Assembly (NCBI RefSeq): GCF_002723935.1
Contig: NZ_BEWM01000001.1
Coordinates: 62,001-126,000 of the forward strand
Reading direction: 5' to 3'
DNA: 64,000 nt
From: Gluconobacter cerinus
GTDB lineage: Bacteria; Pseudomonadota; Alphaproteobacteria; Acetobacterales; Acetobacteraceae
In this document: piece by piece, positions 6,423 through 21,084 of the stretch
Layout: every line of letters starts with the position of its first letter
Position numbering within the stretch: position 1 is the stretch's first letter
Translations under genes and position numbers: made by a program
The notes under the pieces: model-generated
Told to the model about the DNA's origin: nothing
What the model saw: the letters and a program-made list of their open reading frames with translations, nothing else
Database searches by the model: none

Positions 6423-7790
6423 ATGTCGGCCGAAGAACCGCCTTTACAACTCCCGAAAGTGGCCGGTGTCCGACGCGTCATGAGCAATGTTGGTGTGTTG
6501 CTTGGAGGACGTGTCGTGAATGCGCCCCTGAGCCTCCTCCATATCTGGATGGCGACACATTTCCTTGGAAGTTATGGCTTTGGTCTCATCGCCATGATGT
6601 ACGCCTTCGCGCGTACCATGGGCGATCTGGTCGATTTCCAGTCCTGGCAGACAGTGCTGAAATATGGCCTTCGCCCGCTGACGGACGGAGACCGGAAAGG
6701 GTTCCAGCGCGTCATAGCGTTCAGTTTTCTGCTGGATGGTCTTGGAGGGTTTCTTGGGTTTTCTGGCGGCCTGTTCATCAGTATCTTTGCTATGAAAATG
6801 CTGGGCTGGCCGCCAGAAATTCACCAGACAGGAACAATATTCTGCCTGTCGATCCTGTTCATGGCATCCGCCACCCCCACAGGTCTTCTGCGCATCTTCA
6901 ACAGATATGATCTGATTTCCATTCAGGGCGTCGTCGCCACTTTCGTTCGCGTCGTGGGTACTTTTTTCCTCACCCTAAAAGGCGCGTCCGTACCAGCATT
7001 GGCGTTCGTGTGGATGTTCGCCGAATTTGCAGCCTGGGCAACACTCGGGTTTATGGCCGTCCGGGAGTTGATCCGCCGAGATCTGATGCGTGGCCTTACA
7101 AAAGAACTACGCGATCTGATCCCTGACCTGCTGAATGGGCATTTCTTTCGAACCCATCTCGGTATCAGGCGCTTTGCGCTCTCCACAAACCTCAATTCTG
7201 CCCTAGCTCTGACTTTCGGGCATATTGGAACGCTTGTAGTGGGAGCGTTCGTTGGCCCCGCAGGTGCCGGGTATTATCGGGTAGCCAGCCAGATTGCCGC
7301 AGGGATCGCCAAGCCAGCCGCCCTGATTCAAACAACTGTATACCCGGAAATGGCACGCCTTTGGCGTGATCGCGCGACAACAAAGCTTTACCGCCTGACC
7401 ATTCAGGTGGCTCTTGCCGCCGGTGGGATCGGGACAGTTCTGCTTGCCTTGACCCTTCTGGCAGGCCGCCCCCTTTTGCAGCTTTATATCGGCCCAACAG
7501 GTGCAACGCAGACGATGCCAGTCACACTCTGGCTTCTTGCAGCGGAAGTTGTTGCTGTCTGGGGCCTTCCGCTCGAACCCCTCCTGTTCACAACAGACCG
7601 CTCGGGCGCTGCGACATCTGCGCGTTTCCTGGACTTTCTTGTATTTTTTCCGGGGCTTGTTCTCGTTGTCCGCAGATACGGTCTCGATGGCGTTGGCCCC
7701 ATTACACTCTGCGGGGTCATGCTCCTGATCGGACTTCAGCTTCTTCTGGTTCTTCGTCAGCCCTCTCTGCGCACGATTTCCCAGCCATGA
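6423..7790 (+). CDS. Polysaccharide/lipid-linked flippase (Wzx/MOP-like)
   Basis: A 455-residue integral membrane protein with about 12 predicted hydrophobic segments, matching the multidrug/oligosaccharidyl-lipid/polysaccharide (MOP) flippase superfamily. Such proteins move lipid-linked glycans across the inner membrane. No strong ribosome-binding site precedes the start at 6423; a Met at codon 20 (6480) is an alternative. The stop overlaps the next start by four bases (ATGA), so it is coupled to a TagB/F-like transferase and then an acyl-AMP ligase. The substrate could be a glycan-lipid or a sphingolipid derivative; this is inference from context. Confidence 0.82.
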   Translation: MSAEEPPLQLPKVAGVRRVMSNVGVLLGGRVVNAPLSLLHIWMATHFLGSYGFGLIAMMYAFARTMGDLVDFQSWQTVLKYGLRPLTDGDRKGFQRVIAFSFLLDGLGGFLGFSGGLFISIFAMKMLGWPPEIHQTGTIFCLSILFMASATPTGLLRIFNRYDLISIQGVVATFVRVVGTFFLTLKGASVPALAFVWMFAEFAAWATLGFMAVRELIRRDLMRGLTKELRDLIPDLLNGHFFRTHLGIRRFALSTNLNSALALTFGHIGTLVVGAFVGPAGAGYYRVASQIAAGIAKPAALIQTTVYPEMARLWRDRATTKLYRLTIQVALAAGGIGTVLLALTLLAGRPLLQLYIGPTGATQTMPVTLWLLAAEVVAVWGLPLEPLLFTTDRSGAATSARFLDFLVFFPGLVLVVRRYGLDGVGPITLCGVMLLIGLQLLLVLRQPSLRTISQP

Positions 7791-8917
7791 AAGTCGTCTT
7801 TCCCTTAATCGCCCAGCGACACCAGACGCTACACGCTCTACCAATCGCACTGGAAATGTCAGCCCGACATCCAGAAGTCGCGGTCCATATTGCGTGCCTG
7901 ACAGCAAGTCATCTCGAACTCGCGCGTTCGTTGGCTACGCTTTATCCGGAGTCTCGCGTTCAGTTTGACCTGCTTCCGATTTCAGATGCACTTCGGCATC
8001 GGATTGAAGCACAGGGGCTACGAGTCCTTGACCGCCTCATGGGGCTGTTTTTCTCCCGGAAGTATTTCAAGGGCTTCGATGCCATCATCGTTCCTGAAGC
8101 AACCTCTCTTCAGCTTCGACACATGGGCGTTCGTACCCCCCGTATGATCTGGACGGGTCATGGGGCCGGAGATCGTGCCATCGGCTTTGCCAAGCATCTC
8201 AGAAAATTTGATTATCTTCTGGTTCCCGGCCGTAAAGTCGAAGAGCGGATGCTGGAAAAAGGCATCATCCGTCCTGGCTTCTATCACCGTGGCACATATG
8301 CAAAGTTTGATCTGGTTCGCCGGATGCATGCACGTCGACCACCGCTTTTTAATAACGGTCGCCCGACAATCCTGTATAATCCGCATTTCGTGCAGCGTTT
8401 CTCGTCATGGCGCATGATGGGCAAGAAGCTGCTTGATTTTTTTGCAGCACAGGATCAGTACAATCTGATCTTTGCTCCTCATTTCCGGCTGTTTGATAAC
8501 CATCGCCCGGAAGGAGAAGCCCTCAGACGAGAATATGCGGGTCTGTCCCATATGCTAATCGACCCAGGGAGCGAACGAAGTATCGACATGACCTATACCA
8601 TGGGCGCAGATCTCTATCTCGGGGATGTCAGCAGTCAGGTGGCAGAATTCATGATACGACCACGCCCATGCCTGTTTCTCAACGCTCACGAAGCAGCCTG
8701 GCAGGATAACCCCAATTATCAGTCTTGGACGCTTGGCCCGGTGACGGATAATATTGCCAATCCTGGACAGGAAATCATGAAGGCGTTCGACACACACTCA
8801 CGTTTTCTTGAGACCCAGCGCCAATATGTACTAGAGACTTTCGAAACTTTGGGCGAACAGCCCACGGCACCCGCCGCAGCGGACGCCATAGTTAACTTTC
8901 TACACAAGGCCGCCTGA
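7787..8917 (+). CDS. CDP-polyol phosphotransferase-like protein (TagB/TagF family)
   Basis: A 376-residue cytoplasmic or membrane-associated protein of the CDP-glycerol:glycerophosphotransferase type. The second GT-B-like half carries the motifs LYNPHF and FAPHFRLF, an acidic GADLYLGDVSSQVAEF segment (about residues 280-295), and RPCLFLN, all typical of the family. Known members transfer a phosphopolyol from a CDP-activated donor. In this locus a MobA-like cytidylyltransferase candidate (18310-19065) could supply a CDP-activated donor for a lipid acceptor. Overlaps its upstream neighbour by four bases and the next gene by one base (TGATG). Exact donor and acceptor unknown. Confidence 0.78.
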   Translation: MKVVFPLIAQRHQTLHALPIALEMSARHPEVAVHIACLTASHLELARSLATLYPESRVQFDLLPISDALRHRIEAQGLRVLDRLMGLFFSRKYFKGFDAIIVPEATSLQLRHMGVRTPRMIWTGHGAGDRAIGFAKHLRKFDYLLVPGRKVEERMLEKGIIRPGFYHRGTYAKFDLVRRMHARRPPLFNNGRPTILYNPHFVQRFSSWRMMGKKLLDFFAAQDQYNLIFAPHFRLFDNHRPEGEALRREYAGLSHMLIDPGSERSIDMTYTMGADLYLGDVSSQVAEFMIRPRPCLFLNAHEAAWQDNPNYQSWTLGPVTDNIANPGQEIMKAFDTHSRFLETQRQYVLETFETLGEQPTAPAAADAIVNFLHKAA

Positions 8918-10728
8918 TGTCCGGCGATCCTAATGGAGCTAGTCTAGGTTTGACCGAGGACACCCAGAACCCAACTCTTCTCTCCGCTCCGACGCCGAGC
9001 CGCTCTGGCCTGACCAGACGGTACGGGGACTTCACGAGCTTTGCCGCAGCCCTGGACTATGCAGCCCAGGGCGAGAGTGGATTCAATATCTACTCTGGCC
9101 GCGGGCAACTGCTGGAAGCCTTGCCGTATCGAACGCTCCGCGAACAGGCAATTTCCATGGCCCAGCGTCTGCTTGGCCTTGGACTGGCAGCAGGAGACCG
9201 GGTGGCCATCGTCGCAGAAAGCGATGGTGACTTTGCCCGTATCTTCTTCGGTTGCCAGTATGCAGGGCTCGTTCCAGCTCCGCTGCCGCTTCCTGTCGCT
9301 TTTGGCGGACGTGAAGGATATGTTTCCACCCTCCGTGGCATGATTCAGAGCGCTGCAGCACGTGCTGTTGTGGTTCCGGACGTAATCGGAAGCTGGACAT
9401 CGGAGATCGTTGAGGGTCTGGATCTGGTTTTTGGCGGCTCCCCCGCTGACCTCTACCGTCATGCTGAAGCCAATGTAGAGCTTCCGGAAATCAAATCCGA
9501 AAATCTGTCCTACCTCCAGTTTTCATCTGGCAGCACGCGTTTCCCAATGGGCGTTTCTGTCACTCAGGCCGCCGGAATGGCCAACGCACGCGCGATTGCC
9601 CGTGACGGTCTCAAGGTTTATGCCGCAGAAGATCCACGCGATGATCGCTGCGTGTCCTGGCTACCACTCTACCATGATATGGGCCTGGTCGGGTTTTTCC
9701 TGACTCCCCTGACATGCCAGTTGACGGTTGATCTGCTGCCGACCCGCGAATTCGCACGTCGCCCCCATGTGTGGCTGGACCTGATTTCGCGCAATCGCGG
9801 CACAATCGCCTACAGCCCCTCTTTTGGCTACGAGCTATGTTCGCGTCGCAGTGGCCAGGCGGATCTGGACCTCTCCTGCTGGCGCATTGCGGGGATCGGC
9901 GGCGACATGATCCGCCACCATATCCTCGAAGGCTTTGCCGAGCGTTTTGAATCCAATGGATTTGATGCCCGCGCGTTCGTTGCCAGCTACGGTATGGCCG
10001 AAGCAACCCTGGCCATCAGCTTTGCCCCGCTCAACACCGGCATTCAGACCGACACGATCGATCTGCGCACGCTGGAAAAAGACGGCCTCGCACAGCCTTC
10101 CAATGATCCCTCTCACGCGCTCCGCACTTTTGTGCTTTGCGGTGAAGCCCTTCCTGAGCACGAGATTGAAGTCCGTGACCCGCTCGGTAACATTCAGCCT
10201 GAGCGCCATGTTGGCTGTGTTTTCGTCCGTGGACCAAGCCTCATGTGTGGCTATTTCCGCCGTCCGGAAGAGACGGAAGCCGTTCTCGATGCTGATGGCT
10301 GGCTGAACACTGGCGATCTTGGCTACCACCTGAACGGCCAGATTGTCGTAACGGGCCGCGCCAAGGACCTTATCATCATCAACGGCCGGAATATCTGGCC
10401 GCAGGATCTGGAATGGTCTGCCGAGAGCGAGATCAGCACACTGCGGTCCCGCGATGTCGCAGTCTTCTCACTGGAAACGGAAACAGGCGAGAATATCGTC
10501 GCACTTGTTCAGTGCCGTGCAACCGAAGAAGAAAGCCGCAACACGCTCCGTGATGAAGTCACGAGCCTGTTCCGCCGTCAGCATGGTGTGGACGTGCAGG
10601 TTATTCTGGTTCCGCCCCGCACCCTTCCACAGACGTCTTCCGGCAAGCTGACGCGTGCCCGCGCCAAGACAATGCTTCTGTCAGGTCAGTTCGATCTGCA
10701 GACCGAGCCAACCAACTCCGCAGCCTGA
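8917..10728 (+). CDS. Fatty acyl-AMP ligase (FAAL)
   Basis: A 603-residue adenylate-forming enzyme that activates a fatty acid as acyl-AMP, normally for transfer to an acyl carrier protein instead of CoA. Visible are the P-loop-like LQFSSGSTRFP (about residue 200), SWLPLYHDMGLVG, YSPSFGYELC, the aspartate motif LNTGDLG, and the C-terminal GRAKDLIIINGRNIWPQD hinge. The last is typical of FAALs more than acyl-CoA synthetases. An ACP gene follows 113 bases downstream and then serine palmitoyltransferase, supporting a role loading acyl chains for sphingoid base synthesis, as proposed for the acyl-ligase in the Caulobacter sphingolipid locus. Confidence 0.88.
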   Translation: MSGDPNGASLGLTEDTQNPTLLSAPTPSRSGLTRRYGDFTSFAAALDYAAQGESGFNIYSGRGQLLEALPYRTLREQAISMAQRLLGLGLAAGDRVAIVAESDGDFARIFFGCQYAGLVPAPLPLPVAFGGREGYVSTLRGMIQSAAARAVVVPDVIGSWTSEIVEGLDLVFGGSPADLYRHAEANVELPEIKSENLSYLQFSSGSTRFPMGVSVTQAAGMANARAIARDGLKVYAAEDPRDDRCVSWLPLYHDMGLVGFFLTPLTCQLTVDLLPTREFARRPHVWLDLISRNRGTIAYSPSFGYELCSRRSGQADLDLSCWRIAGIGGDMIRHHILEGFAERFESNGFDARAFVASYGMAEATLAISFAPLNTGIQTDTIDLRTLEKDGLAQPSNDPSHALRTFVLCGEALPEHEIEVRDPLGNIQPERHVGCVFVRGPSLMCGYFRRPEETEAVLDADGWLNTGDLGYHLNGQIVVTGRAKDLIIINGRNIWPQDLEWSAESEISTLRSRDVAVFSLETETGENIVALVQCRATEEESRNTLRDEVTSLFRRQHGVDVQVILVPPRTLPQTSSGKLTRARAKTMLLSGQFDLQTEPTNSAA

Positions 10729-10752
10729 CGGACACACCTGACCGCTTTTCCT

Positions 10753-10768
10753 CTCCCTGCTCAGGGAG
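10753..10768 (+). other. Small hairpin between acyl ligase and ACP genes
   Basis: A 7-bp stem (CTCCCTG/CAGGGAG) with a two-base loop lies in the 113-base gap between the acyl-AMP ligase and ACP genes. It has no following T-run, so it is not a convincing terminator. It could be a processing or stabilising element that sets ACP/Spt expression apart from the upstream genes. Confidence 0.3.
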
Positions 10769-10841
10769 GGGGTGGCGAACAGACGTGCTTTGACGCATAA
10801 AGCGCTCACAAACTGCATAGTAAGACCGAGAGTTCAATTCC

Positions 10842-11096
10842 ATGACTGACAGCGTCGCCGGCATCTCCGGAATGATCATAGAAAAGCTGCTTGCCAACCC
10901 GAAAGTGCCACGGGACATCAATGGCAACAGCAAGATCGTCGAAGATCTGGCTTTTGACAGCCTCGCCGTCATGAACTTCGTCATGGAAATTGAAGATGAG
11001 CTGGACGTGTCTGTCCCGCTCGACAAGCTGGCAGATATCCGCACCATCAACGATCTGGCTGCCTGCCTTCATACACTGAAGGCAAGCCACGCGTGA
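10842..11096 (+). CDS. Acyl carrier protein, dedicated to sphingoid synthesis
   Basis: An 84-residue ACP with the phosphopantetheine attachment serine in the FDSLAVMNF motif (Ser about residue 45) and an acidic helix II (MEIEDELDV). It differs clearly from the house-keeping AcpP encoded at 25883-26122. It overlaps the serine palmitoyltransferase start by four bases (GTGA) and follows a fatty acyl-AMP ligase. It therefore most likely carries the acyl chain that Spt condenses with serine. This arrangement is known from other alphaproteobacterial sphingolipid loci; the assignment here is from sequence and context. Confidence 0.9.
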   Translation: MTDSVAGISGMIIEKLLANPKVPRDINGNSKIVEDLAFDSLAVMNFVMEIEDELDVSVPLDKLADIRTINDLAACLHTLKASHA

Positions 11097-12286
11097 TTGA
11101 TATCTTTGCAAAACACGCCGCCCTCCGGGCAGCCTATGACGGATTGACGGCAGTTTCGCCACGCAACCCGTTCGAGGTCGTGATTGAACGCCCGCTCTCA
11201 GCCACGGTCGGTCTGATTGAGGGGCGTGAGACGCTTCTGTTCGGAACCAACAATTATCTGGGCCTCAGCCAGTCAGGGCACGCAGCGGAAGCCGCGATTG
11301 AGACAGCCCGCACAATGGGCGTCGGCACAACGGGCTCCCGGATTGCCAATGGCACCTTCGGCCTGCATCGCAAGCTGGAAGAGCGCCTCGCTTCTTTCTT
11401 CGGCCGCAAGCACTGCATGGTGTTCTCTACGGGATATCAGGCCAACCTCGGCACAATTTCTGCGCTGGTTAACAAGGACGATGTGCTGCTTCTGGATGCA
11501 GACAGCCATGCCAGCATTTATGACGGTGCAAAACTGTCTGGTGCGCAGGTCATCCGCTTCCGCCACAATGACCCGGTCGATCTTGAGAAGCGCCTTGCAC
11601 GCCTGAGCGATCATCCTGGCGCCAAGCTGATCATCGCGGAAGGCATCTATTCCATGACGGGGAACGTTGCCCCGCTGGACAAGTTTGTCGAAATCAAGAA
11701 GCGCCACGGCGCCTACCTGATGGCTGATGAAGCACATTCCTTTGGCGTGCTAGGTGAAAACGGTCGTGGGGTTGCAGAACTCCAGGGCTGTGAAGACGGC
11801 ATCGACTTCGTAGTCGGAACCTTCTCAAAGTCGCTCGGAACAGTGGGCGGATATTGCGTCACGGATCATGATGGCGTTGATCTGATGCGCCTCTGCTCTC
11901 GCCCGTATATGTTCACAGCCTCCCTCCCCCCGGAGATCATCGCGGCAACGCTGGCTGCTCTTGATGATATGGTTGCACATCCAGAACTTCGCACCCGCCT
12001 CCAGGACAATGCTGCACGTCTTCATGCCGGATTGAAGGCCGCAGGCCTACAGACCGGCGAACATGTTTCGCCGGTGGTTGCTGTGACGCTTGAAACGGTG
12101 CCTCAGGCTGTCGGGTTCTGGAATGCCCTTCTTGAAAACGGCGTTTACGTTAATCTGTCTCTCCCGCCCGCAACACCTGACAACCGTCCGCTGTTGCGCT
12201 GCTCGGTTATGGCTGCTCACAGCCCTGAAGAAATTGATCAGGCAACAGCCGTCTTCAAGCAGGTTGCCGAGCATTTCCGAGACTGA
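11093..12286 (+). CDS. spt: Serine palmitoyltransferase
   Basis: A PLP enzyme of the alpha-oxoamine synthase family that condenses L-serine with an acyl thioester to 3-oxosphinganine, the first step of sphingolipid synthesis. It has 397 residues, with a GTG start overlapping the ACP stop. Blocks I recognise from Sphingomonas Spt are conserved here: VFSTGYQANLG, DADSHASIYDG, the PLP aspartate/histidine region ADEAHSFG, the Schiff-base lysine in GTFSKSLGTVGG (about residue 245), RPYMFTASLPP and YVNLSLPPATP. These favour Spt over 8-amino-7-oxononanoate synthase or 2-amino-3-ketobutyrate ligase. The context (acyl ligase, ACP, lipid kinase, hydroxylase) agrees. Confidence 0.92.
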   Translation: MIDIFAKHAALRAAYDGLTAVSPRNPFEVVIERPLSATVGLIEGRETLLFGTNNYLGLSQSGHAAEAAIETARTMGVGTTGSRIANGTFGLHRKLEERLASFFGRKHCMVFSTGYQANLGTISALVNKDDVLLLDADSHASIYDGAKLSGAQVIRFRHNDPVDLEKRLARLSDHPGAKLIIAEGIYSMTGNVAPLDKFVEIKKRHGAYLMADEAHSFGVLGENGRGVAELQGCEDGIDFVVGTFSKSLGTVGGYCVTDHDGVDLMRLCSRPYMFTASLPPEIIAATLAALDDMVAHPELRTRLQDNAARLHAGLKAAGLQTGEHVSPVVAVTLETVPQAVGFWNALLENGVYVNLSLPPATPDNRPLLRCSVMAAHSPEEIDQATAVFKQVAEHFRD

Positions 12287-12308
12287 GTACGGCGTCGTTT
12301 AAAGCGCA

Positions 12309-12341
12309 AAAAGGGGACTGTTCCAGACAGTCCCCTTTTTT
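12309..12341. terminator. Bidirectional terminator after spt
   Basis: A 12-bp stem, AAAAGGGGACTG paired with CAGTCCCCTTTT, with a 7-base loop and T-runs on both strands. It sits between convergent genes (spt and the minus-strand nucleotidyltransferase-like gene), so it can end both transcripts. Confidence 0.9.
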
Positions 12342-12366
12342 ATGGGCTTTATCCTGAGAAATAACG

Positions 12367-13299
12367 TCAGGCGGCTTTGCGCAAACGTTTCATACGTAAA
12401 AGCAACGCAGGCAAAGTGAGCAAGGGATGTCGCCGCTCAAACTCAGAGAGGGCCAGATCAAGCCCTGTATGACGCTTGATTTTCCACGCCAGATAAGACG
12501 CACCGTTTTCAAAAGTAAACGCCGCTTTCACGAGCCGCGCTACGTTTCGAGGCTTGCCTGACGTCCCAACAAGCGCCCAGCGCCGTGCTGCCCGTTTGCG
12601 CAAAGTCGGCGACACGGTCGGCTCAAGCATTTCGCCCACTGCAGAATAACCAAGATGCGCTCGCGCCCATCCCAGGGTCAGCATGCTACTGAACCGCGCC
12701 TCTTGGCCAGCAAGCAAACTATTGCCGCGCCCCTTCTTCTCAACACGCAATTCTGAAGCATAAGTGTGGGCAAAAAGGGTCCGCCAGTATTCAAGCGCCG
12801 TCATGTGCGGCGCACCCAGGAGGGCAGCCCAGCAGGACGCAGTCGTCACACACCGCGCCAGCAAGTCCAGCAACATATCCGCTGCATGCTCGTCTCGAAC
12901 CCACACGAGACGTACAGGCTGACAAAACCGTGCCCATAGTGTCGTATCGAGCGCGCCAAGTGACGTACGGTCTTCGAACTGCTCCCGCGACAATACCGCA
13001 ATCTTTGCGCGCAACGTGCGATGACCGTCTTTGAATTCGGCGTAACGGACATTTGGAGGAAGAAGCAGGTTGCCGGTACGAGCAACCATACTGCCCGTAA
13101 AATCCTTTGAGCTTTCCGTCACGATATAAAAATCGAGAATACCGTCCGGGTCTGCTGCGCGGAGCACCGAACCATAAAACAGAACACCCAGAGGCGGACG
13201 TGGGAAAGCACGAGCCAGAGCATCGGCGAAAGCTACAGCGCTCTCATCAACCGGCGTTGTCAGCTCTTCAATGAGAATTTTTTCAAGTGCATCAGGCAT
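12367..13299 (-). CDS. Nucleotidyltransferase-like protein of the lipid locus
   Basis: A 310-residue protein. Near its start a segment YGSVLR...DGILDFYIV (about residues 45-62) has the G-S then D-x(n)-D layout of the polymerase-beta nucleotidyltransferase fold; no transmembrane segment is obvious. The start at 13299 overlaps the upstream kinase-like gene by eight bases (ATGCCTGA) and is preferred over an extension to 13398, which would overlap by about 100 bases. Coupling to a lipid-kinase homologue and proximity to spt suggest a role in head-group attachment. The Caulobacter ceramide-phosphoglycerate locus also contains a protein of this kind, as I recall. Reaction unknown. Confidence 0.6.
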   Translation of the reverse strand: MPDALEKILIEELTTPVDESAVAFADALARAFPRPPLGVLFYGSVLRAADPDGILDFYIVTESSKDFTGSMVARTGNLLLPPNVRYAEFKDGHRTLRAKIAVLSREQFEDRTSLGALDTTLWARFCQPVRLVWVRDEHAADMLLDLLARCVTTASCWAALLGAPHMTALEYWRTLFAHTYASELRVEKKGRGNSLLAGQEARFSSMLTLGWARAHLGYSAVGEMLEPTVSPTLRKRAARRWALVGTSGKPRNVARLVKAAFTFENGASYLAWKIKRHTGLDLALSEFERRHPLLTLPALLLRMKRLRKAA

Positions 13300-14242
13300 G
13301 GAGGAAACGGAAGGCTGGCCCACGTTCAAGTCGAATACGCCCGCTCTCTGAGGGTGTAAAAACCTCTCCGTCCAGGACAAAGTCACTTCTTGTTTCAAGC
13401 ATCATGTCGTCTGTTCGGCCACTCACATAGTCAGGATGACGCCGCAGCCACCGGGGCGCACGTCCACACAGAAGCGCAGCCGTCGCACGGGCAAGGTTTT
13501 CCGGGTAGGCGCTGACATCAAGATATCGCAGACCTTCCACATTCGGTTCCGCATCCCAGAACGGCCAGATTCCATGAGAAAGCCGGGATAGTCCCGTTGA
13601 AAGAAACATGAAGCTGTTCCCGTCATAAGCGTGGCCAGATGTTTCAACCCGTAGAGGCTCCCCCTCCAACCAGCTCTTGCGACTTTTACGGAAAAGGAGA
13701 CTGACAACGGTGCTGAAGAGCGTAAAGCCTACAGCCAGATCATGGGGGGCAAACCTGACGACTGCTGGGGAATGCGCCGTACGAACAGCGCGCGCATAGC
13801 CCGTACACCCTCCAAACAATCCGAGCACTGGCTTGCGGTCTGTGTCTGGCCAAGAAAGACAAATGGGTGTGCGTGTGCTCGATCGCATTGCAGCCCCTTG
13901 TTGCAAGCGATTGATAGCCTCCATCTCCCTCAGCCCGAACCCGATATCCCCAGCAATGAGATTGGTGTTCCCTGATGCGATTACGGCGATATCGGGAAGG
14001 CGATCTGCTGGATATGCACGCGCAATGGCTGTCAGCGCAGCGCTGATTGTTCCGTCCCCACCATCAATGGCAATGGTTCGGACTCCCTGCCTGCAAAGGT
14101 AATGAACATGTTCGGTCATCCCTTCACGACTGTCTGATGGAACGAAATTCTCTCCGAGAAGCGCCTTGGCCTCCGTAGCGAATACGGAACCGCCGCGCCG
14201 GTTCTTACGGCTGCGAGCATTATGAATAAGGGCAAATCGCAC
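13292..14242 (-). CDS. DAG/sphingosine-kinase family protein (candidate ceramide kinase)
   Basis: A 316-residue protein with the DAGK catalytic domain: N-terminal IHNARSRKN, the nucleotide-binding AIDGGDGTISAAL (about residues 58-70) and ASGNTNLIAGDIG. The family phosphorylates lipid hydroxyls (diacylglycerol, sphingoid bases, ceramide). Next to serine palmitoyltransferase, ceramide or a long-chain base is the likeliest acceptor, as for the ceramide kinase CpgB of Caulobacter. It starts at GTG (14242), divergent from the metallophosphatase operon with a 123-base gap, and is coupled to the nucleotidyltransferase-like gene downstream. Lipid substrate is inferred. Confidence 0.8.
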   Translation of the reverse strand: MRFALIHNARSRKNRRGGSVFATEAKALLGENFVPSDSREGMTEHVHYLCRQGVRTIAIDGGDGTISAALTAIARAYPADRLPDIAVIASGNTNLIAGDIGFGLREMEAINRLQQGAAMRSSTRTPICLSWPDTDRKPVLGLFGGCTGYARAVRTAHSPAVVRFAPHDLAVGFTLFSTVVSLLFRKSRKSWLEGEPLRVETSGHAYDGNSFMFLSTGLSRLSHGIWPFWDAEPNVEGLRYLDVSAYPENLARATAALLCGRAPRWLRRHPDYVSGRTDDMMLETRSDFVLDGEVFTPSESGRIRLERGPAFRFLHA

Positions 14243-14365
14243 TATAGGGGGAATTCTTCGTTTTTGTTCGGAGCTATGCGGGCGGGTCTAGCACGGCTAT
14301 GATGTTTCGGCCAGAATGCGAGCTTCCCCTTCCGGCAGAAAGACTGACAAGGCTTCATTTCCTCC

Positions 14366-15274
14366 ATGCCCCATGATCTCCCCGCAGAAACGTCTTCTCA
14401 GCGGGAGACGTGCGCCGTCGTTCTGGCCCATCTCTCGGACCCTCACCTCCCACCTCCTCCGGTTCGCTGGTGGGAAGCTCTGAACAAGCGGGCTCTCAGT
14501 CTCATTTCGTGGAAAAAGCATCGTCGGCACGTTCACCTGGCGGCTATATGCATGGAAATTGTACAGGATATTGCCAGAGCCAACGTTGATGCCATTCTTG
14601 TCAGCGGAGACCTGACGAACTTCGGCACGCCAGCAGAGTTCACCCTGGCTGCCGAATGGCTGGAAAAGCTCCCGGCGCAGACATTGGTCATTCCGGGCAA
14701 TCATGATTGCATGATCCGTCAGTCCCCTGAAAAGGGGATCCTGCAATGGGAGAAATGGTCTGGGGCGACTTATCCGTACGCCCGCATCCACAACGGCGTT
14801 GCCATTATCGGTGTGAACTCGGGCATCCCAACCCCACCGTTCATGGCTTATGGCCGGGTTGGCCACAAACAGCTTGCCCGACTGGAAGCTCTGCTGACGC
14901 AACTGGGCGATGCCGAACTCTGTCGTGTTGTCATGATCCATCATCCCCCCCGAAAAGGGCTGGTGCCATGGCGGAAGTCGCTGCTCGATCATCCCGCCGT
15001 GGCAAAGCTTCTTCAAAGAACTGGTGCTGAAATCGTTCTCCATGGGCACTCCCATGACGCGACCCTGACACACATCGCCGGAACTGAAATACCGCTTCTT
15101 GGGGTCGCCTCTGCATCCCTGACAGACAAACGTGCTCATCGACAGGCCTGCTGGAATCATCTGACTATTCGCCCCCGAAAAAGCGGTTGGACGATTGATC
15201 TTGCCCGACACCGGCCGGATGGGAGCATTACGGAACAGGCCTCCTGGTTCCGACCGCAAGGTACGCAGGCATGA
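14366..15274 (+). CDS. Calcineurin-like metallophosphatase
   Basis: A 302-residue metallophosphoesterase, first gene of a six-gene coupled operon. All metal-ligand motifs are present: LSDPHL (about residue 24), SGDLTN, GNHD, MIHHPP and LHGHSH. It has no signal peptide, so it acts in the cytoplasm. In the sphingolipid context it may remove a phosphate from a phosphorylated head-group intermediate, for instance a phosphoglycerate ester; alternatively it could be a general phosphodiesterase. The stop overlaps the LptF-like start by four bases. Substrate unproven. Confidence 0.82.
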   Translation: MPHDLPAETSSQRETCAVVLAHLSDPHLPPPPVRWWEALNKRALSLISWKKHRRHVHLAAICMEIVQDIARANVDAILVSGDLTNFGTPAEFTLAAEWLEKLPAQTLVIPGNHDCMIRQSPEKGILQWEKWSGATYPYARIHNGVAIIGVNSGIPTPPFMAYGRVGHKQLARLEALLTQLGDAELCRVVMIHHPPRKGLVPWRKSLLDHPAVAKLLQRTGAEIVLHGHSHDATLTHIAGTEIPLLGVASASLTDKRAHRQACWNHLTIRPRKSGWTIDLARHRPDGSITEQASWFRPQGTQA

Positions 15275-16422
15275 AGCAGCGCGCCTCCATTCTGGACAGA
15301 TATCTACTGTGGCAGATGATGCCACCGTTCGTTATCGCCCTCTTTGCGATGCTCGTGGCGCTCCTTCTGGAACGCCTGCTCGTCCTGTTCGATTATCTGG
15401 CCTCAGCCGGAAGCTCCCTTGCGACCTGCATCGCGCTGCTGACAGATCTTCTGCCGCATTATTTCGGGATCGCTCTTCCAGCCGCGCTCTGCATCTCGGT
15501 TTTTCTCACCATCCATGGAATGAGCGACAATAACGAGATTGATGCACTTCAAGCTGGACGTGTGTCTCTGCTGCGGATCAGTCGGCCCTTCATGATTGTG
15601 GGTCTGCTGCTGGGGGCCGTAAGTGTGCTGCTCTACGGCTATATTCAGCCGGTTGCGCGCTACGATTATCGGGCCGGCTTCTATTTCGCGGCTCATACAG
15701 GCTGGGCACCGCATCTTCAGGCAGGAATGTTCGCGTCCACGTCTGATACGGCAGTGATGACGGCAGACAGCGTCAGTCACGGCGGCACCCACATGAGGCG
15801 TGTCTTCATCCGGGAAGTGAACAAGAATGGTCTTGCTCACATCATCACCGCCCGCCGCGGCATGCTCACAATTTCAGATAAAACCCGCAGCACCCAGATG
15901 GATCTCTGGGACGGTGAAATCGTCGACGATCCCTTCCCCGGAGCCGCTAATCACAAACCGACGGTCACGCATTTCTCGCATGTCGTTCGCGTCATTGATC
16001 ATCCTGCAAAAGAGACGACCTTTCGCTCTCGTGGAATTGACGAACGGGAGCTGACGCTTTTCGAACTCGCACATGATCTTCGTTATGGCGTACCGGGCAT
16101 CGAATATCGGACGCTTCGTGCAGAAATCGATTTCCGCATCGCACATGCCCTTGCCATCCCGTTTATCCCCCCCCTGGCCGTAGCGCTGGCCATTGGCTCA
16201 CGGCGTAGAAAGTCGGTGTGGGGATTGATTGCGGTTTCGGGCATTCTTGTCGGGTTTGACCAGATGCTCATGTTTGGACATAGCCTGGCTGCGACGGGCC
16301 GCCTTCCCATCTGGCTTGCCATCTGGGTGCCGGAAGCGCTCTTCTGCATTGGCTGTCCCGCCACTCTGCTGCGCCGGTCGCGCGGTTCCTGGAAACGCCG
16401 CAAACTGGTTCGCCCGTCATGA
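15271..16422 (+). CDS. LptF-like (YjgP/YjgQ) lipid export permease
   Basis: A 383-residue membrane protein of the LptF/LptG family: N-terminal transmembrane pair, conserved cytoplasmic NNEIDALQAGRVS segment (about residues 88-100), periplasmic beta-jellyroll (about 125-270), then C-terminal transmembrane helices. Canonical LptF pairs with LptG and the LptB ATPase to lift lipopolysaccharide from the inner membrane. Here the pair is embedded by four-base overlaps between a metallophosphatase and a ceramide-type hydroxylase. It may therefore handle a sphingolipid instead of, or as well as, LPS. No LptB, LptC or LptD gene is in the window. Confidence 0.85.
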   Translation: MKQRASILDRYLLWQMMPPFVIALFAMLVALLLERLLVLFDYLASAGSSLATCIALLTDLLPHYFGIALPAALCISVFLTIHGMSDNNEIDALQAGRVSLLRISRPFMIVGLLLGAVSVLLYGYIQPVARYDYRAGFYFAAHTGWAPHLQAGMFASTSDTAVMTADSVSHGGTHMRRVFIREVNKNGLAHIITARRGMLTISDKTRSTQMDLWDGEIVDDPFPGAANHKPTVTHFSHVVRVIDHPAKETTFRSRGIDERELTLFELAHDLRYGVPGIEYRTLRAEIDFRIAHALAIPFIPPLAVALAIGSRRRKSVWGLIAVSGILVGFDQMLMFGHSLAATGRLPIWLAIWVPEALFCIGCPATLLRRSRGSWKRRKLVRPS

Positions 16423-17519
16423 CCGCCCACGCACCACACTATGTTCTGTATCGTTATCTGAACCGTGCACTTCTGGGGCGCTTTATGCTCTGTGGTGGCG
16501 TGCTGGTCTCGCTGCTTGAGATCCTTGCGCTCCTTGAAAAAACGACGCCCATTCTCAACCGGAATCTGGGCTTCAAGGGCATCCTGACATTTGCACTGCT
16601 GCATCTTCCTGCGCTCAGCGTCGAGATCATGCCTCTGGCATTCATGGTCGGAGCACTGTTCCTCCTGATGCAGATGACGCTGTCATCGGAAATGTCAGCC
16701 CTTCGTGCAGCCGGACTTTCCACGATCAATCTCTACAAGCGCTTTCTGCCAGCCATCCTGATTGTGGGTTTTACCGGAACAGCCATGCAATACTGGCTCA
16801 TCCCCCCGTGCGAAAATGCGCTTGCAACATGGTGGAACAAAACGGACCCTGATGCAGCGAAGCCCGACACCCCCTCAAAGCGTATTCTCTGGTTTCGTGC
16901 AGGGCCAACTCTTGTCCGTATCGGCCAGTTTGCGCACGGTGGGGCGTTCCTGCGGGATGTTACTATTTATCACCGGGACCCGGGTGGCCTTCTGACAGGG
17001 ACCGAGCACGCCGCGACCCTGACATATGACGGCAAGGACTGGCACCCGACCGGAGCGCAGGATCTCACGCTGACGGATAATGGCGCTTTTGTAAAAATCA
17101 CTGGTGGCGACAATAATTTTGCCATTCCGGCGACACCATCAATGATCATGACGTTATCGGAAGATAACGCTGCCGTGACCCCAAGTCAGATCGGGGCCAT
17201 CCTCCACAAAGGTGCCCCTGCCAGTCTTCCCCGTGCAACGTACCGCATGGCACTCTTCAGTGGTATTATTCTTCCGTTTCAGGTCGCAGTAATGCTTTTA
17301 TTAGCGCTACCAGTGATCTATATCCCCCCTCGGGCAGGACTTCGAAACCCGCTTCCGGTCTATGTGCTGGCCGCGGGAATGGGCTTCGTGATCCTGCAGG
17401 GAATGATTTCCGCACTGGGCAATGCTGGAACGCTTGCCGCGCCACTGGCGGCCTGTGCGGGCCCACTTCTGGGCGCCCTTCTTGGGCTGACCTGGGTCCT
17501 GAGGATGGAGGAAAGATGA
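16419..17519 (+). CDS. LptG-like (YjgP/YjgQ) lipid export permease
   Basis: A 366-residue partner of the LptF-like protein. It has the coupling-helix segment SSEMSALRAAGLS (about residues 87-99), a periplasmic jellyroll (about 135-270) and three C-terminal membrane helices. The start overlaps the LptF-like stop by four bases and the stop overlaps the hydroxylase start by four bases. If the genome encodes a second, canonical lptF/lptG pair, this one is a dedicated lipid transporter; if not, it is the essential LPS exporter placed in a lipid operon. The sequence alone cannot decide. Confidence 0.85.
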   Translation: MTAHAPHYVLYRYLNRALLGRFMLCGGVLVSLLEILALLEKTTPILNRNLGFKGILTFALLHLPALSVEIMPLAFMVGALFLLMQMTLSSEMSALRAAGLSTINLYKRFLPAILIVGFTGTAMQYWLIPPCENALATWWNKTDPDAAKPDTPSKRILWFRAGPTLVRIGQFAHGGAFLRDVTIYHRDPGGLLTGTEHAATLTYDGKDWHPTGAQDLTLTDNGAFVKITGGDNNFAIPATPSMIMTLSEDNAAVTPSQIGAILHKGAPASLPRATYRMALFSGIILPFQVAVMLLLALPVIYIPPRAGLRNPLPVYVLAAGMGFVILQGMISALGNAGTLAAPLAACAGPLLGALLGLTWVLRMEER

Positions 17520-18313
17520 GCAAGTCCAAACCATGGCAGAACATGTCGTCCCTCCGGACGGGGCGCAGCTTCGATCTCGGAAAGATGTCGCTGCCTCAGT
17601 TGTGGATTGCCTATCTCACCTACCCTACCATCCTTCTGTATTTCGTACTGATCGTTGCAGCAGCTTTCGGAGCACTTCACTTCTCCCATAGCCTGCTAAC
17701 AACGCTAATACCCGTTCCTGTCGTGATCGTGGTGTATCCGCTGGCCTGGTACATGATCCATCGCTTCATCCTGCATGGACGCTGGCTATACCGGAACCAC
17801 TGGACCGCTTCGCTCTGGAAGCGCATCCACTTCGATCATCATCAGGACCCCCATCTGCTGGATGTGCTGTTTGGATCCCCCCTGAACACCGTCCCGACCA
17901 TGGGCATCATCACCATGCCGATCGGATACCTGATCTGCGGCTGGAGCGGGGCATTCTGCGCCCTGTCCACAGCCCTTGTGATGACATGCATCTATGAGTT
18001 TTTTCACTGCATCCAGCATCTGGCCTACAAGCCGCGCTGGAAGTGGGTTGCCCGGATCAAGCAACTTCATGTTCTTCATCATTTCCATGATGAAAATGGC
18101 AATTACGGGATTACAAACTACGTGCCAGACCGATTTTTTGGCAGTTTCTACCGTGAAGCCCGTGACCGCGCACGCAGCCAGCACGTCTTCAATCTCGGCT
18201 ACGATCTGGATGAAGCCAAGCGCTATCCCTGGGTCATGAACCTTACAGGCGCTCCGCCAAAAGATCGTCCTGATGGGGCACGCTCTTCCTCCGACAACAG
18301 CCGCACAGCGTGA
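17516..18313 (+). CDS. Fatty acid hydroxylase/sterol desaturase family protein
   Basis: A 265-residue integral membrane diiron enzyme. The histidine clusters are complete: HRFILH (about residue 82), HFDHH, HCIQH and HVLHHFH. They are interspersed with membrane segments as in the FA2H/Scs7 and sphingoid C4-hydroxylase group. Acetic acid bacteria are reported to make dihydroceramide with a 2-hydroxy acyl chain, so ceramide acyl 2-hydroxylation is the most economical role here; long-chain base hydroxylation is the alternative. Four-base overlaps on both sides place it in the same transcript as the LptF/G-like pair. Specificity is inferred. Confidence 0.85.
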   Translation: MSKSKPWQNMSSLRTGRSFDLGKMSLPQLWIAYLTYPTILLYFVLIVAAAFGALHFSHSLLTTLIPVPVVIVVYPLAWYMIHRFILHGRWLYRNHWTASLWKRIHFDHHQDPHLLDVLFGSPLNTVPTMGIITMPIGYLICGWSGAFCALSTALVMTCIYEFFHCIQHLAYKPRWKWVARIKQLHVLHHFHDENGNYGITNYVPDRFFGSFYREARDRARSQHVFNLGYDLDEAKRYPWVMNLTGAPPKDRPDGARSSSDNSRTA

Positions 18314-19065
18314 GCCTTCCCGTTCTCGTACTCGCTGGTTCTCGTGACGGTGAGCGTGATGTTCTGGCACAACTTGGGAAGGTCTCGCACAAAGCGCTCC
18401 TTCCGGTCGGCGGCCAACCGATGCTGGGGCGCGTCCTGCGCGTGCTGGAGAGCATGCCTGCTCTCGGGCCGATTACGGTCAGCATCGAAGCACCAGACCG
18501 TATTCGGGATATTTCCGGCGAGGCCCACGTTCTCCAATCGGCACCTTCTCCCAGCGAAAGCGTTGCTGAAGCTCTCAGCAAGGTTGGGACGCCCTGCCTG
18601 GTGACAACGGCTGATCACGCGCTGCTGCGTCCAGAATGGATTTCAGAATTTCTTGGTAAAACGGCTGGATGTGATCTTGCCGTGGGCGTCGCTCTTCGGG
18701 AAACTGTAGAGCGAGACGTCCCGACCACGAAGCGAACCTATATTCGCCTCGCAGATATGAGCTTTTCCGGATGTAATCTTTTCTGGATGGGCACGCCTCA
18801 GGCTGCGGAAGTAGTCGAACTGTGGAAGCGGCTTCAGAAGGACCGCAAGCGGCCCCTGAAAATGGCTCGAACACTTGGATTCGGAACACTTCTTCGGGCC
18901 CTGACAGGCCGCCTGGATTCCACCGCTCTGTGTCGTCGGATCGAAGTTCTGACGGGGGCGAAAATACGTCTCGTGCCGCTTTCTGACGGTCAGGCCGCCG
19001 TAGATGTCGATAAGCCTTCTGACCTGACACTCGCTGAACAGCTTCTGGCACAACGGTCTTCATGA
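18310..19065 (+). CDS. MobA-like nucleotidyltransferase (candidate CDP-donor synthase)
   Basis: A 251-residue protein with the N-terminal nucleotide-binding pattern LVLAGSRDGERD...KALLPVGGQPMLGRVL and a metal-site TTADHALL (about residue 98), as in MobA-like NTP transferases. The GTG start overlaps the hydroxylase stop. In Caulobacter a MobA-like protein, CpgD, is reported as a phosphoglycerate cytidylyltransferase for ceramide diphosphoglycerate synthesis. This gene sits in the equivalent place of a comparable locus and could make a CDP-activated donor for the TagB/F-like transferase at 7787-8917. That link is inference. Confidence 0.72.
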   Translation: MSLPVLVLAGSRDGERDVLAQLGKVSHKALLPVGGQPMLGRVLRVLESMPALGPITVSIEAPDRIRDISGEAHVLQSAPSPSESVAEALSKVGTPCLVTTADHALLRPEWISEFLGKTAGCDLAVGVALRETVERDVPTTKRTYIRLADMSFSGCNLFWMGTPQAAEVVELWKRLQKDRKRPLKMARTLGFGTLLRALTGRLDSTALCRRIEVLTGAKIRLVPLSDGQAAVDVDKPSDLTLAEQLLAQRSS

Positions 19066-20162
19066 AAATTGCCTACGTCATCAACTCGCTCGAATGCGGT
19101 GGCGCACAGCTACCCATTCCGGACATTGTCTCCGTTCTCCAGCAGCGAGGTGGCGAAGTCACAGTTTTCAGCCTCGAAAAGCGTGATGGCCTTGCCATTC
19201 CCGTTCTGGAGAGCCACGGCATTGAGGTTCGCGTAAGATCCGGCGGCAACAAAGACCATTTAGCGGCCTGGCGCTGGCTGCGCGATGAAATGGACGCATT
19301 TCAGCCGGATCTGATCTGGACATCCCTGACCCGAGCTACGCTTCTCGGCCAGCGCGCAGCCAACAGGCTTGGTGTCCCGGCAGTCCACTGGCAGCATTCT
19401 GCCCGGTTGAAGTCCGCCAACAGCCTCCTGCTCCGGCTTTTGTGCCGGAATGCGAAGCTATGGATTGCAGACTCTCCTACGGTTGAGGATTTTGCCCGCA
19501 AAAGTCTGGGACTACGGAACCGCGTTCTTTCCTGGCCAATTTTCCGGGCCAATCCTCACAGCCCCACAGCAAAGGCCTGGCGCAAAGGACAGACCGTCCG
19601 TATCGGAAGTCTTGGCCGACTGCACGCCGTAAAGGGGTATGACCTGCTTTTCGAAGCACTGGATCTGCTCCGTGACCACCCGGACCTTCCCCCCTATCGA
19701 CTGTCCTTAGCCGGAGACGGCCCAGAAAAAGAAGCACTGGAGCAGATCGCCAGGGAGAAAAAACTCCCGGTCGATTTTCTCGGACATTGCGACAAGCCGT
19801 TCGAATTTTTGTCGACGCTGCATCTGTATGTTCAGCCGTCCCAGTGGGAGGGCATGTGCGTTGCCGCCCATGAGGCCATGGCCTGCGCGCTGCCCGTAAT
19901 TGCCACGCCGGCGGGCGAAATCCCCCACACCATGGAAGACGGGCATTCCGGTCTTGTGGTCCCGTTCAACAACGCCCCGGTTCTGGCCAGTGCGATTGCT
20001 GAACTCATCATGACTCCGGGAAAGCTCAAACCCATGGGGCGCCTCTCCCGGGAACGCGTTCTGGAGCGGTTCGGCCCGACGGCGTTTCTACGTCAGGGAA
20101 ATGCCGTTCTGGACAGAATTCCTGGCTTTAACCCAGCCCCAGACGACGCTTCACATTCATAA
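19062..20162 (+). CDS. Glycosyltransferase family 4 protein
   Basis: A 366-residue GT-B fold glycosyltransferase. The N-terminal domain begins YVINSLECGGAQ; the donor-binding domain has GSLGRLHAVKGYDLL (about residue 185) and the E-x7-E region EGMCVAAHEAMACALPVIAT (about 263-282). It is the last gene of the six-gene operon, joined by a four-base overlap. It may add a sugar to the ceramide-derived lipid. Its 3' end overlaps the convergent GINT1-like gene by 35 bases. Donor and acceptor unknown. Confidence 0.85.
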   Translation: MKIAYVINSLECGGAQLPIPDIVSVLQQRGGEVTVFSLEKRDGLAIPVLESHGIEVRVRSGGNKDHLAAWRWLRDEMDAFQPDLIWTSLTRATLLGQRAANRLGVPAVHWQHSARLKSANSLLLRLLCRNAKLWIADSPTVEDFARKSLGLRNRVLSWPIFRANPHSPTAKAWRKGQTVRIGSLGRLHAVKGYDLLFEALDLLRDHPDLPPYRLSLAGDGPEKEALEQIAREKKLPVDFLGHCDKPFEFLSTLHLYVQPSQWEGMCVAAHEAMACALPVIATPAGEIPHTMEDGHSGLVVPFNNAPVLASAIAELIMTPGKLKPMGRLSRERVLERFGPTAFLRQGNAVLDRIPGFNPAPDDASHS

Positions 20163-21018
20163 AATCCCGACGTGGGCCAATTCCAACACGCTTGACGTCA
20201 ACAAGCGTCACTTGACCAGCGGCTGAGAGCGTGTGGAAACCGTCCGGAAAACGACGGCGCAGCACGGCAGGCGCATCCAGCACATCACTTGGTGTCACTT
20301 TCGGCAACCCGCGCTCAAGCCCTTCAATTTTCAGCAGACGAATGCCTTGGCCATAAGTGTCACGGCAGTCTTGCGTGGGAAGGAAGAGCTCTCCATCGAC
20401 AACAACCGGAGTGCCACCCGGACGCGCTCCCGCACGGTCACTCAAAAACAGCCCGAGATGTGTCCACGGCCCCGTAAGACTATCTGCTACGGAGATGTGC
20501 AGAGCGCTTTGTCGCTCGTCTCGCGTGCCTGCGGGCGTCCAGAACATCCACCAACGCTCGGCATAATGGAACGGCGTGGCGTCAATCGCGGCCTCTCGGA
20601 AATCAAATGCTTCGACCTTTTCCCATTCCAACGGAAAAGCTTTGGCCCGATACAGGGTCAGGCGGCCTGAAGCACTGGCCTCGGGCAGCATGTACGTCTC
20701 CCCGCCATGCTCAAAGACGTATGGGTAGGACAGATGCCAGTCTTCACGCAGGACAGGCTGTTGCTGAATCAGCTTTCCCGTCCGGTCATAGACCAGAACA
20801 TCAATGGTGCCTTTGGGGGCTCGGTAGTCGAAGGCTTCCGCAAAAATATGCAGCTTTCCGTCCCGCCAGAGACCAAAAGGATCGGCCAGAAAACGATGAT
20901 CTCCGATATCCGGCAGGGTCGTCACCTCAAACCCATTGAGGCTACCCGCTCGGATCAGGTCCGCCAGAGGAGCGTGGATAATGGCGCAACGCCAGTGGTC
21001 CGTGCGTAGAAACGGCAT
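20128..21018 (-). CDS. GINT1 N-terminal-domain-like beta-propeller protein
   Basis: A 296-residue protein with a repeated beta-propeller pattern: FLADPFGLW (about residue 43), LHIFAEAFDY, HLSYPYVFEH, MLPEASASGRLTLYRA, WWMFWTP and SLTGPWTHL. This resembles the N-terminal domain of plant glucosamine inositolphosphorylceramide transferase and bacterial proteins named after it; it also looks distantly like GH43/GH32 propellers. The start at 21018 follows an excellent AAGGAGAGT ribosome-binding site, so a longer reading to 21075 is rejected. Its location against a sphingolipid operon is suggestive. Catalytic function unproven; it could be a lipid-glycan binding or transfer protein. Confidence 0.65.
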   Translation of the reverse strand: MPFLRTDHWRCAIIHAPLADLIRAGSLNGFEVTTLPDIGDHRFLADPFGLWRDGKLHIFAEAFDYRAPKGTIDVLVYDRTGKLIQQQPVLREDWHLSYPYVFEHGGETYMLPEASASGRLTLYRAKAFPLEWEKVEAFDFREAAIDATPFHYAERWWMFWTPAGTRDERQSALHISVADSLTGPWTHLGLFLSDRAGARPGGTPVVVDGELFLPTQDCRDTYGQGIRLLKIEGLERGLPKVTPSDVLDAPAVLRRRFPDGFHTLSAAGQVTLVDVKRVGIGPRRDFMNVKRRLGLG

Positions 21019-21084
21019 GCCGACTCTCCTTGAAAAACGCGAACAGGGGCAGACGTAAAGCGCAGATCCGGGCAATATGGAACC

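Follow-up and report, generated by a model that had tools for sequence, protein, structure and literature searches.

The window, the whole stretch of DNA analysed here, is 64,000 nucleotides of the Gluconobacter cerinus assembly GCF_002723935.1 (contig NZ_BEWM01000001.1, positions 62,001 to 126,000; G000:C1:62001-126000), a genome of 3.58 Mb that is 99.96% complete and is called G000 below. Between window positions 6423 and 21075 lie fourteen genes arranged around spt, which encodes serine palmitoyltransferase. The products of this cluster very probably synthesise, modify and export a membrane lipid built on ceramide, and we regard the cluster as a reduced, acetic-acid-bacteria form of a known alphaproteobacterial phosphosphingolipid locus type, with its reductase probably replaced by an enzyme encoded outside the window. 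A preliminary description made from the sequence alone had presented a sphingolipid synthesis, head-group and export locus. All of the open reading frames that it named are real and library matches agree with its list of proteins; its observation is confirmed, and its interpretation is supported in part.

Three forward-strand genes stand together: aasR (8917..10728), for the acyl-AMP ligase/acyl-ACP (acyl carrier protein) synthetase serving AcpR (NF006624, 904.3 bits; cut-off, 600); acpR (10842..11096), for a dedicated acyl carrier protein (PF00550, 43.1 bits); and spt itself (11093..12286; NF047599, 613.5 bits; cut-off, 500). With acpR immediately before spt and aasR nearby, the arrangement is that of a rhodobacterial spt operon. 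The window Spt shares 99% identity with its counterpart in Gluconobacter sp. Gdi and 93-94% with those of G. frateurii, G. thailandicus and G. japonicus. Two reverse-strand genes follow, for a CpgC-type cytidylyltransferase (12367..13302), predicted to act as a CTP:ceramide-1-phosphate cytidylyltransferase, and for a ceramide-kinase homologue in the CpgB position (13292..14242; DAGK_cat PF00781, 36.4 bits). The forward strand then carries a metallophosphatase (14366..15274; PF00149, 62.1 bits), LptF2 (15271..16422; PF03739, 178 bits) and LptG2 (16419..17519; PF03739, 225.5 bits), a second LptF/LptG-like permease pair and the first of them sphingolipid-linked, a membrane diiron fatty-acid hydroxylase (17516..18313; PF04116, 65.4 bits), probably for the N-acyl chain of ceramide, and a MobA/CofC-like nucleotidyltransferase (18310..19065; PF12804, NTP_transf_3).

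Acetic-acid-bacteria type denotes here the genomes nearest the window by Spt, Gluconobacter and Bombella among them; gene presence in their 39 loci, and in the cerS regions treated below, was counted by tblastn, which undercounts short or divergent genes, acpR above all. The run of eight genes from spt through the cytidylyltransferase, kinase, phosphatase, LptF2, LptG2 and hydroxylase to the MobA-like protein is intact in 33 of the 39 loci, which places the locus far beyond chance, and aasR is found in all 39. All fourteen parts are present in 19 of the 20 named Gluconobacter loci; L128, the exception, is a contig of 4.8 kb. From the flippase described next to the GT4 gene, nine of ten same-strand junctions overlap by 1-11 bases, taking the cytidylyltransferase start as 13302; the exception is the 113 bases between aasR and acpR. 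Four transcription blocks are formed: flippase to spt (forward), cytidylyltransferase and kinase (reverse), metallophosphatase to GT4 (forward) and GINT1_N (reverse).

The outer genes are accessory. A MOP/Wzx-type flippase (Polysacc_synt; 6423..7790, forward; PF01943, 37.8 bits) is found in 11 of the 39 loci, some of which are truncated upstream; the G. thailandicus flippase matches in three pieces. The variable gene after it (7787..8917, forward; 18 loci) encodes a GT-B-fold protein, possibly a CDP-polyol phosphotransferase or a glycosyltransferase, whose poor model (pLDDT 67) resembles GT-B enzymes, UDP-GlcNAc 2-epimerases first, so that only the GT-B fold can be read from it. This protein and that of 12367-13398, the cytidylyltransferase, are the two of the locus with no Pfam match. 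At the far end lie a GT4 glycosyltransferase (19062..20162, forward; PF00534, 104.2 bits) and a GINT1_N-domain protein (20128..21075, reverse; PF24793, 126.9 bits), for which a start at 21018, as in the preliminary description, or at 21075 is possible. Both are variable (18 and 17 of 39 loci) and were rejected as core genes, and the glycosylated ceramide proposed earlier gains little from them. Upstream of the locus, window positions 3501-6137 encode a TonB-dependent receptor-like protein, recognised by a plug-domain match only and seen in two of the 39 loci, the stretches often being cut there. Contigs begin about 3.5-4 kb before spt in G192, G228, G189, G142, G073, G226, G254, G030 and G276, as if a repeated element lay at that point.

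Comparison with the Caulobacter and Roseomonas loci

PMC11324152 describes the Caulobacter locus CC_1168-CC_1152 as aasR, cerR, acpR, spt, CC_1161 (a CDP-diacylglycerol-synthase-like domain), CC_1160 (ceramide kinase), CC_1159 (CDP-alcohol transferase), CC_1158 (phosphoesterase), LptF2, LptG2, CerS, CC_1153 (CofC-like) and CC_1152. There CC_1160 and CC_1161 are required for ceramide phosphoglycerate (CPG), and CC_1159, CC_1158, CC_1153 and CC_1152 serve CPG2, the lipid with two phosphoglycerates. CC_1152 is taken as CpgD (ccna_01210), and by parallel gene numbering CC_1161 would be CpgC and CC_1159 CpgA. The window keeps the Caulobacter order for aasR-acpR-spt, the CC_1161- and CC_1160-position genes, the phosphatase, LptF2-LptG2 and a CC_1153-type nucleotidyltransferase. 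It differs in having no cerR, cerS, CpgA or CpgD and in carrying the PF04116 hydroxylase inside the operon, whereas the paper names a DesA-type gene elsewhere (CC_0202).

The Roseomonas marmotae plasmid locus, annotated independently, has the Caulobacter order all the way between acpR-spt and the CpgD-position gene. DUF2141 and HIT genes precede its LptF2, aasR-cerR lies behind the run, and its CerS was identified through E. coli YghO, to which it is 44% identical. Paired by position, the window proteins are 48% (CpgC-type), 31% (kinase), 38% (phosphatase), 34% (LptF2), 29% (LptG2) and 51% (CC_1153-type) identical to their Roseomonas counterparts; the CpgD-position protein has no counterpart in the window. 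By order and by these identities, homologues of CC_1160 and CC_1161 adjoin spt, as in a Caulobacter-type CPG locus. The phosphatase, a possible CC_1158 counterpart by order only, is the least sure assignment because PMC11324152 reports no CC_1158 orthologues in the other species that it examined. The MobA-like protein, which had been likened to CpgD, was rejected as such: it matches the CC_1153-position protein of Roseomonas (50.6%) and not the CpgD-position protein. This plasmid, p1318-4 (L113), holds a complete CPG2-type cluster, cerR and a CpgD-like gene included, and plasmid-borne spt is listed in other Roseomonas too.

A fold search assigns the CpgC-type protein to the Tam41 fold. It is 13% identical over the aligned part to Tam41, the mitochondrial CDP-diacylglycerol synthase, and its substrate here would presumably be ceramide-1-phosphate. 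The Tam41 Pfam family PF09139 gave nothing above cut-off in the CpgC-type family (best E 0.13, in one of 15 members), and against solved structures phmmer found no match and a profile one weak match (E 1.2). A literature search for CDP-ceramide in bacteria gave no paper. The kinase homologue has the GGDGT motif and no CxxxCxxC, as specified for CpgB, and is predicted to phosphorylate ceramide.

Models of CpgA and CpgD found no match in G000 at E limits of 1e-10 and 1e-15. Among the 80 genomes defined below, CpgA matched strongly in G121, G266 and G063, as a truncated form in G293 and weakly (42 bits) in G157; CpgD matched strongly in G121, G266, G063 and G293, and 20 others, some of them without spt, gave only weak matches of 58-108 bits. 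A CpgA/CC_1159 hidden elsewhere in the genome was rejected, since G000 has only two CDP-alcohol phosphotransferases and no CpgA-model match. Because neither CpgA nor CpgD was found, CPG2 is not expected, and because it is CC_1160 and CC_1161 that Caulobacter needs for CPG, a product with one phosphate is. The likeliest product is a CPG-like lipid with a single, putative phosphoglycerate head group and not CPG2.

Co-occurrence of the head-group, export and hydroxylase genes with spt

Among 299 Acetobacteraceae genomes, spt is present in 100. Co-occurrence was counted in 80 selected genomes, 48 of these 100 carriers and 32 of the 199 without spt. CpgC occurs in 39 of the 48 spt genomes, the CC_1153-type gene in 38, LptF2 in 37 and the hydroxylase in 42; the first three are found in none of the 32 spt-less genomes, and the hydroxylase in none apart from one weak 102-bit match. 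For CpgC, LptF2 and the hydroxylase alike, the association with spt has p < 1e-12 in Fisher tests, values that overstate independence because the genomes are related. Flanking genes kept by relatives that lack spt, the outcome that the preliminary description had set against itself, were thus looked for and not seen, and its tie between spt and the ceramide-kinase, head-group, hydroxylase and export module is supported. Kinase and CpgC occur in 36 of the 39 acetic-acid-bacteria-type loci. G009 is the only CpgC genome without a CC_1153-type gene, and its contig ends after the hydroxylase.

LptF2 is well separated by its model: the weakest of the 37 matches has 362.7 bits and the next match 147.2, and G000 gives 494.6 bits for LptF2 and 114.3 for its other match. 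LptF2 and LptG2 pass the PF03739 cut-off and, at 164.5 and 195.8 bits, do not reach the NCBIfam LptF and LptG equivalog cut-offs (230 and 240 bits). All 37 LptF2 genomes also have CpgC, while the nine spt genomes without CpgC have neither LptF2 nor a CC_1153-type gene (0/9 each), and six of them have the hydroxylase. Because the CpgC-less spt genomes are without LptF2, the permease is tied to the phospho-head-group genes and not to ceramide alone, which fits phosphosphingolipid export. The hydroxylase, kept by those six, goes with ceramide itself. Its four histidine motifs (HX4H, HX2HH, HX3H and HX2HH) are those of the fatty-acid hydroxylase superfamily, and several relatives have it immediately next to cerS, which suggests that its target is the N-acyl chain of ceramide. 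Acetic acid bacteria carry 2-hydroxypalmitoyl-sphinganine ceramide. G131, G054 and G066 carry a complete block, CpgC through the CC_1153-type gene, away from spt. Loci L070 (G116) and L071 (G029) retain CpgC, the kinase, the hydroxylase and a CC_1153-type gene, with the phosphatase and LptF2/LptG2 absent from the locus.

Ceramide synthase and the reduction step

The preliminary description expected ceramide synthase and the CerR reductase elsewhere in the genome. For the synthase this is borne out: G000:C3:302212-303348 encodes a member of the CerS family (347.1 bits), and CerS is present in all 48 spt genomes and in six of the 32 without spt. For the reductase it is not: a canonical CerR was looked for in the genome and not found, the best match to the CerR model having 95.3 bits and falling outside the cerR clade. 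Among the 48 spt genomes, 15 have canonical CerR (341-437 bits). It was not found in the remaining 33, namely G000, a further 30 of acetic-acid-bacteria type, G001 and G021, whose best matches reach no more than 140 bits or miss the E limit, like those of spt-less genomes. In a tree of 54 CerR-like proteins, all 29 canonical rows (five pairs of one identical protein from two loci included) fall on one side at 100/100. The other side, which covers 12 of the 33 CerR-less genomes, holds ten acetic-acid-bacteria rows, seven spt-less rows, G001, G021 and six second copies from CerR genomes. The NDUFA9-like protein was rejected as CerR, as it groups with this paralogue, also found in spt-less genomes, and is split from CerR. 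PMC9386255 gives GOX1849 as the epi gene and GOX2417 as the N-acyltransferase of G. oxydans; since the best CerR-like protein of the G. oxydans genome G279 is of the second, non-canonical type, GOX1849 is probably the paralogue. A search of titles and abstract beginnings gave nothing on CerR loss in acetic acid bacteria, and prior notice is possible.

A classical short-chain dehydrogenase/reductase (SDR) of 276 residues is the divergent neighbour of cerS (G000:C3:301234-302064, reverse; PF00106, 141.6 bits). The cerS regions of 25 of the 33 CerR-less genomes were compared (leaving out G218, G054, G250, G037, G210, G009, G214 and G040), and the SDR stands beside cerS in 24: all of the first 20 acetic-acid-bacteria-type loci (45-100% identity), G001, G215, G116 and G189. 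In the remaining one, G021, an SDR of 40% identity stands beside aasR instead. None of the 15 CerR genomes has this SDR beside cerS; weaker SDRs (27-32%) lie farther off in G086, G182 and G293. The glycine nucleotide-binding motif and YxxxK of classical SDRs are present in all 26 SDRs (acetic acid bacteria, G001, G010 and G021). In the SDR tree, the sequences from acetic acid bacteria, G001 and G010 fall together (25 rows, 100/99), and the CerS proteins of the same genomes likewise form one group (25 rows, 100/99, one row being an unpaired second copy of G215) apart from other CerS. The CerS tree omits one row, L162, and the label 'CerRtype' in both trees was given by exclusion to any row not otherwise labelled. 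Neither SDR nor CerS has a strongly hydrophobic segment, from which we draw no cellular location. Going by published descriptions and not by sequence, the SDR resembles the 3-ketosphinganine reductases (KDSR) BT_0972 of Bacteroides (PMC9278070) and Tsc10 of yeast in being a classical SDR with YxxxK and the glycine motif; the gene for BT_0972 is reported in that paper not to be clustered with SPT, whereas the Gluconobacter SDR adjoins cerS. This SDR probably replaces CerR and reduces 3-ketosphinganine before acylation, in which case a eukaryote-like order (reduce, then acylate) becomes possible.

The spt-less genomes with CerS have features of their own. Five of the six (G010, G016, G015, G005 and G028, not G011) carry CerS beside a Spt/BioF-like gene (34-38% to Spt); in L179, L180, L182 and L183 (G016, G015, G005 and G028) this alpha-oxoamine-synthase-like gene (35-38%) directly precedes the CerS-like gene. 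The CerS-like proteins of these four genomes and G011 form a separate branch of the CerS tree. In G010, which has no canonical spt, cerS, SDR and the Spt/BioF-like gene lie together (L178:4822-8167) near sulfatase, capsule-synthesis and glycosyltransferase genes, perhaps for another alpha-oxoamine-derived lipid; the Spt/BioF-like gene follows the SDR and scores 266.8 bits to NF047599 and 323 bits to bioF, both below cut-off.

Proposed pathway and alternatives

From gene content and order, co-occurrence, folds and trees we infer the reactions, their order and the role in export. AasR would load a fatty acid onto AcpR, and Spt would condense the AcpR-bound acyl group with serine to 3-ketosphinganine. 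The SDR encoded on the other contig would reduce this, probably before acylation, and CerS would N-acylate the product to dihydroceramide, whose N-acyl chain the in-operon diiron enzyme may hydroxylate. The kinase homologue would yield ceramide-1-phosphate, which the Tam41-fold enzyme may convert with CTP to CDP-ceramide; a single phospho-head group would be attached with the aid of the CC_1153-type nucleotidyltransferase and the metallophosphatase, and LptF2/LptG2 would extract the finished phosphosphingolipid toward the outer membrane. That the locus, with the distant SDR and CerS, makes, decorates and exports a phosphosphingolipid and that the SDR stands in for CerR is, in our judgement, probable. 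The fuller proposal, that in acetic acid bacteria periplasmic CerR has given way to a classical SDR that goes with a separate branch of CerS, with all-cytosolic synthesis in eukaryotic order and a head group added via CDP-ceramide from a Tam41-fold enzyme, is plausible and is put forward tentatively.

Several points weigh against the replacement and the pathway. In most acetic acid bacteria the SDR sits between glucokinase and cerS, and by family it is only a generic classical SDR. G021 has no CerR, yet its CerS groups with those of CerR genomes, and its SDR lies outside the paired-SDR group on a long branch; two spt-less genomes have SDRs that come nearer to that group, with weak support. In G215 a second cerS stands without the SDR. 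The search for the SDR covered cerS regions and loci, those of spt-less genomes included. Good reductase homologues are reported in spt-containing Rhodobacteria, G. oxydans included, by PMC9386255. G116 and G029 keep CpgC, and no LptF2 was found in either genome. That the CC_1153-type gene is kept where CpgA and CpgD were not found is at odds with its part in Caulobacter, where it is needed for CPG2 and not CPG (PMC11324152), and suggests that the protein works at the first head-group step or on a different head group; two of its 38 matches (G079 and G295) carry an internal stop. Finally, the 80 genomes are mutually related, their counts not independent, and CC numbers were assigned by gene order, annotation and the text of papers, not by Caulobacter sequence.

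The SDR could instead be a housekeeping neighbour of cerS, the CerR reaction being done by the NDUFA9-like protein, probably the GOX1849 listed as epi in PMC9386255. CerR is itself NDUFA9-like (PMC11087976), and the order glucokinase-SDR-cerS-thiL is largely conserved in acetic acid bacteria; as glucokinase and thiL flank the pair in most of them, part of the SDR-cerS linkage is ordinary synteny. The pair persists, however, in G013, G001 and G010, in which neither glucokinase nor thiL was detected, and the NDUFA9-like type, divided from CerR at 100/100, recurs in spt-less genomes and as a second copy in CerR genomes, so that we consider this unlikely. A product that is mainly glycosylated ceramide, its head group made by GT4, GINT1_N and the GT-B protein while kinase and CpgC serve something else, would account for glycosyltransferase-like genes adjoining the locus, but these occur in 17-18 of 39 loci against 36 for kinase and CpgC, and it seems rather less likely still. 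The earlier view of a CerR elsewhere and a Caulobacter-type lipid made with CpgD activity, possibly CPG2, draws on the presence of the kinase, CpgC-type enzyme, LptF2/LptG2 and nucleotidyltransferase; with no CpgA or CpgD match, a 95-bit CerR match at best in so complete a genome and just two CDP-alcohol phosphotransferases, it is very improbable. Equally hard to credit is that LptF2/LptG2 serve lipopolysaccharide and lie here by chance: their family is that of LptF/LptG, but every one of the 37 LptF2 genomes has CpgC and G000 holds a second, lower-scoring LptF/G-like match.

Whether reduction or acylation comes first in bacterial ceramide synthesis is disputed, and no source of NADH is known for periplasmic CerR (PMC11087976). 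Genomes with spt and CerS and no canonical CerR offer a natural experiment on that order, and in bacteria that can be cultured. That LptF2 is linked to the head-group module, and not to ceramide, tells what this additional Lpt pair probably carries, and a gene set reduced to the point of having neither CpgA nor CpgD separates the CPG step from the CPG2 step for study.

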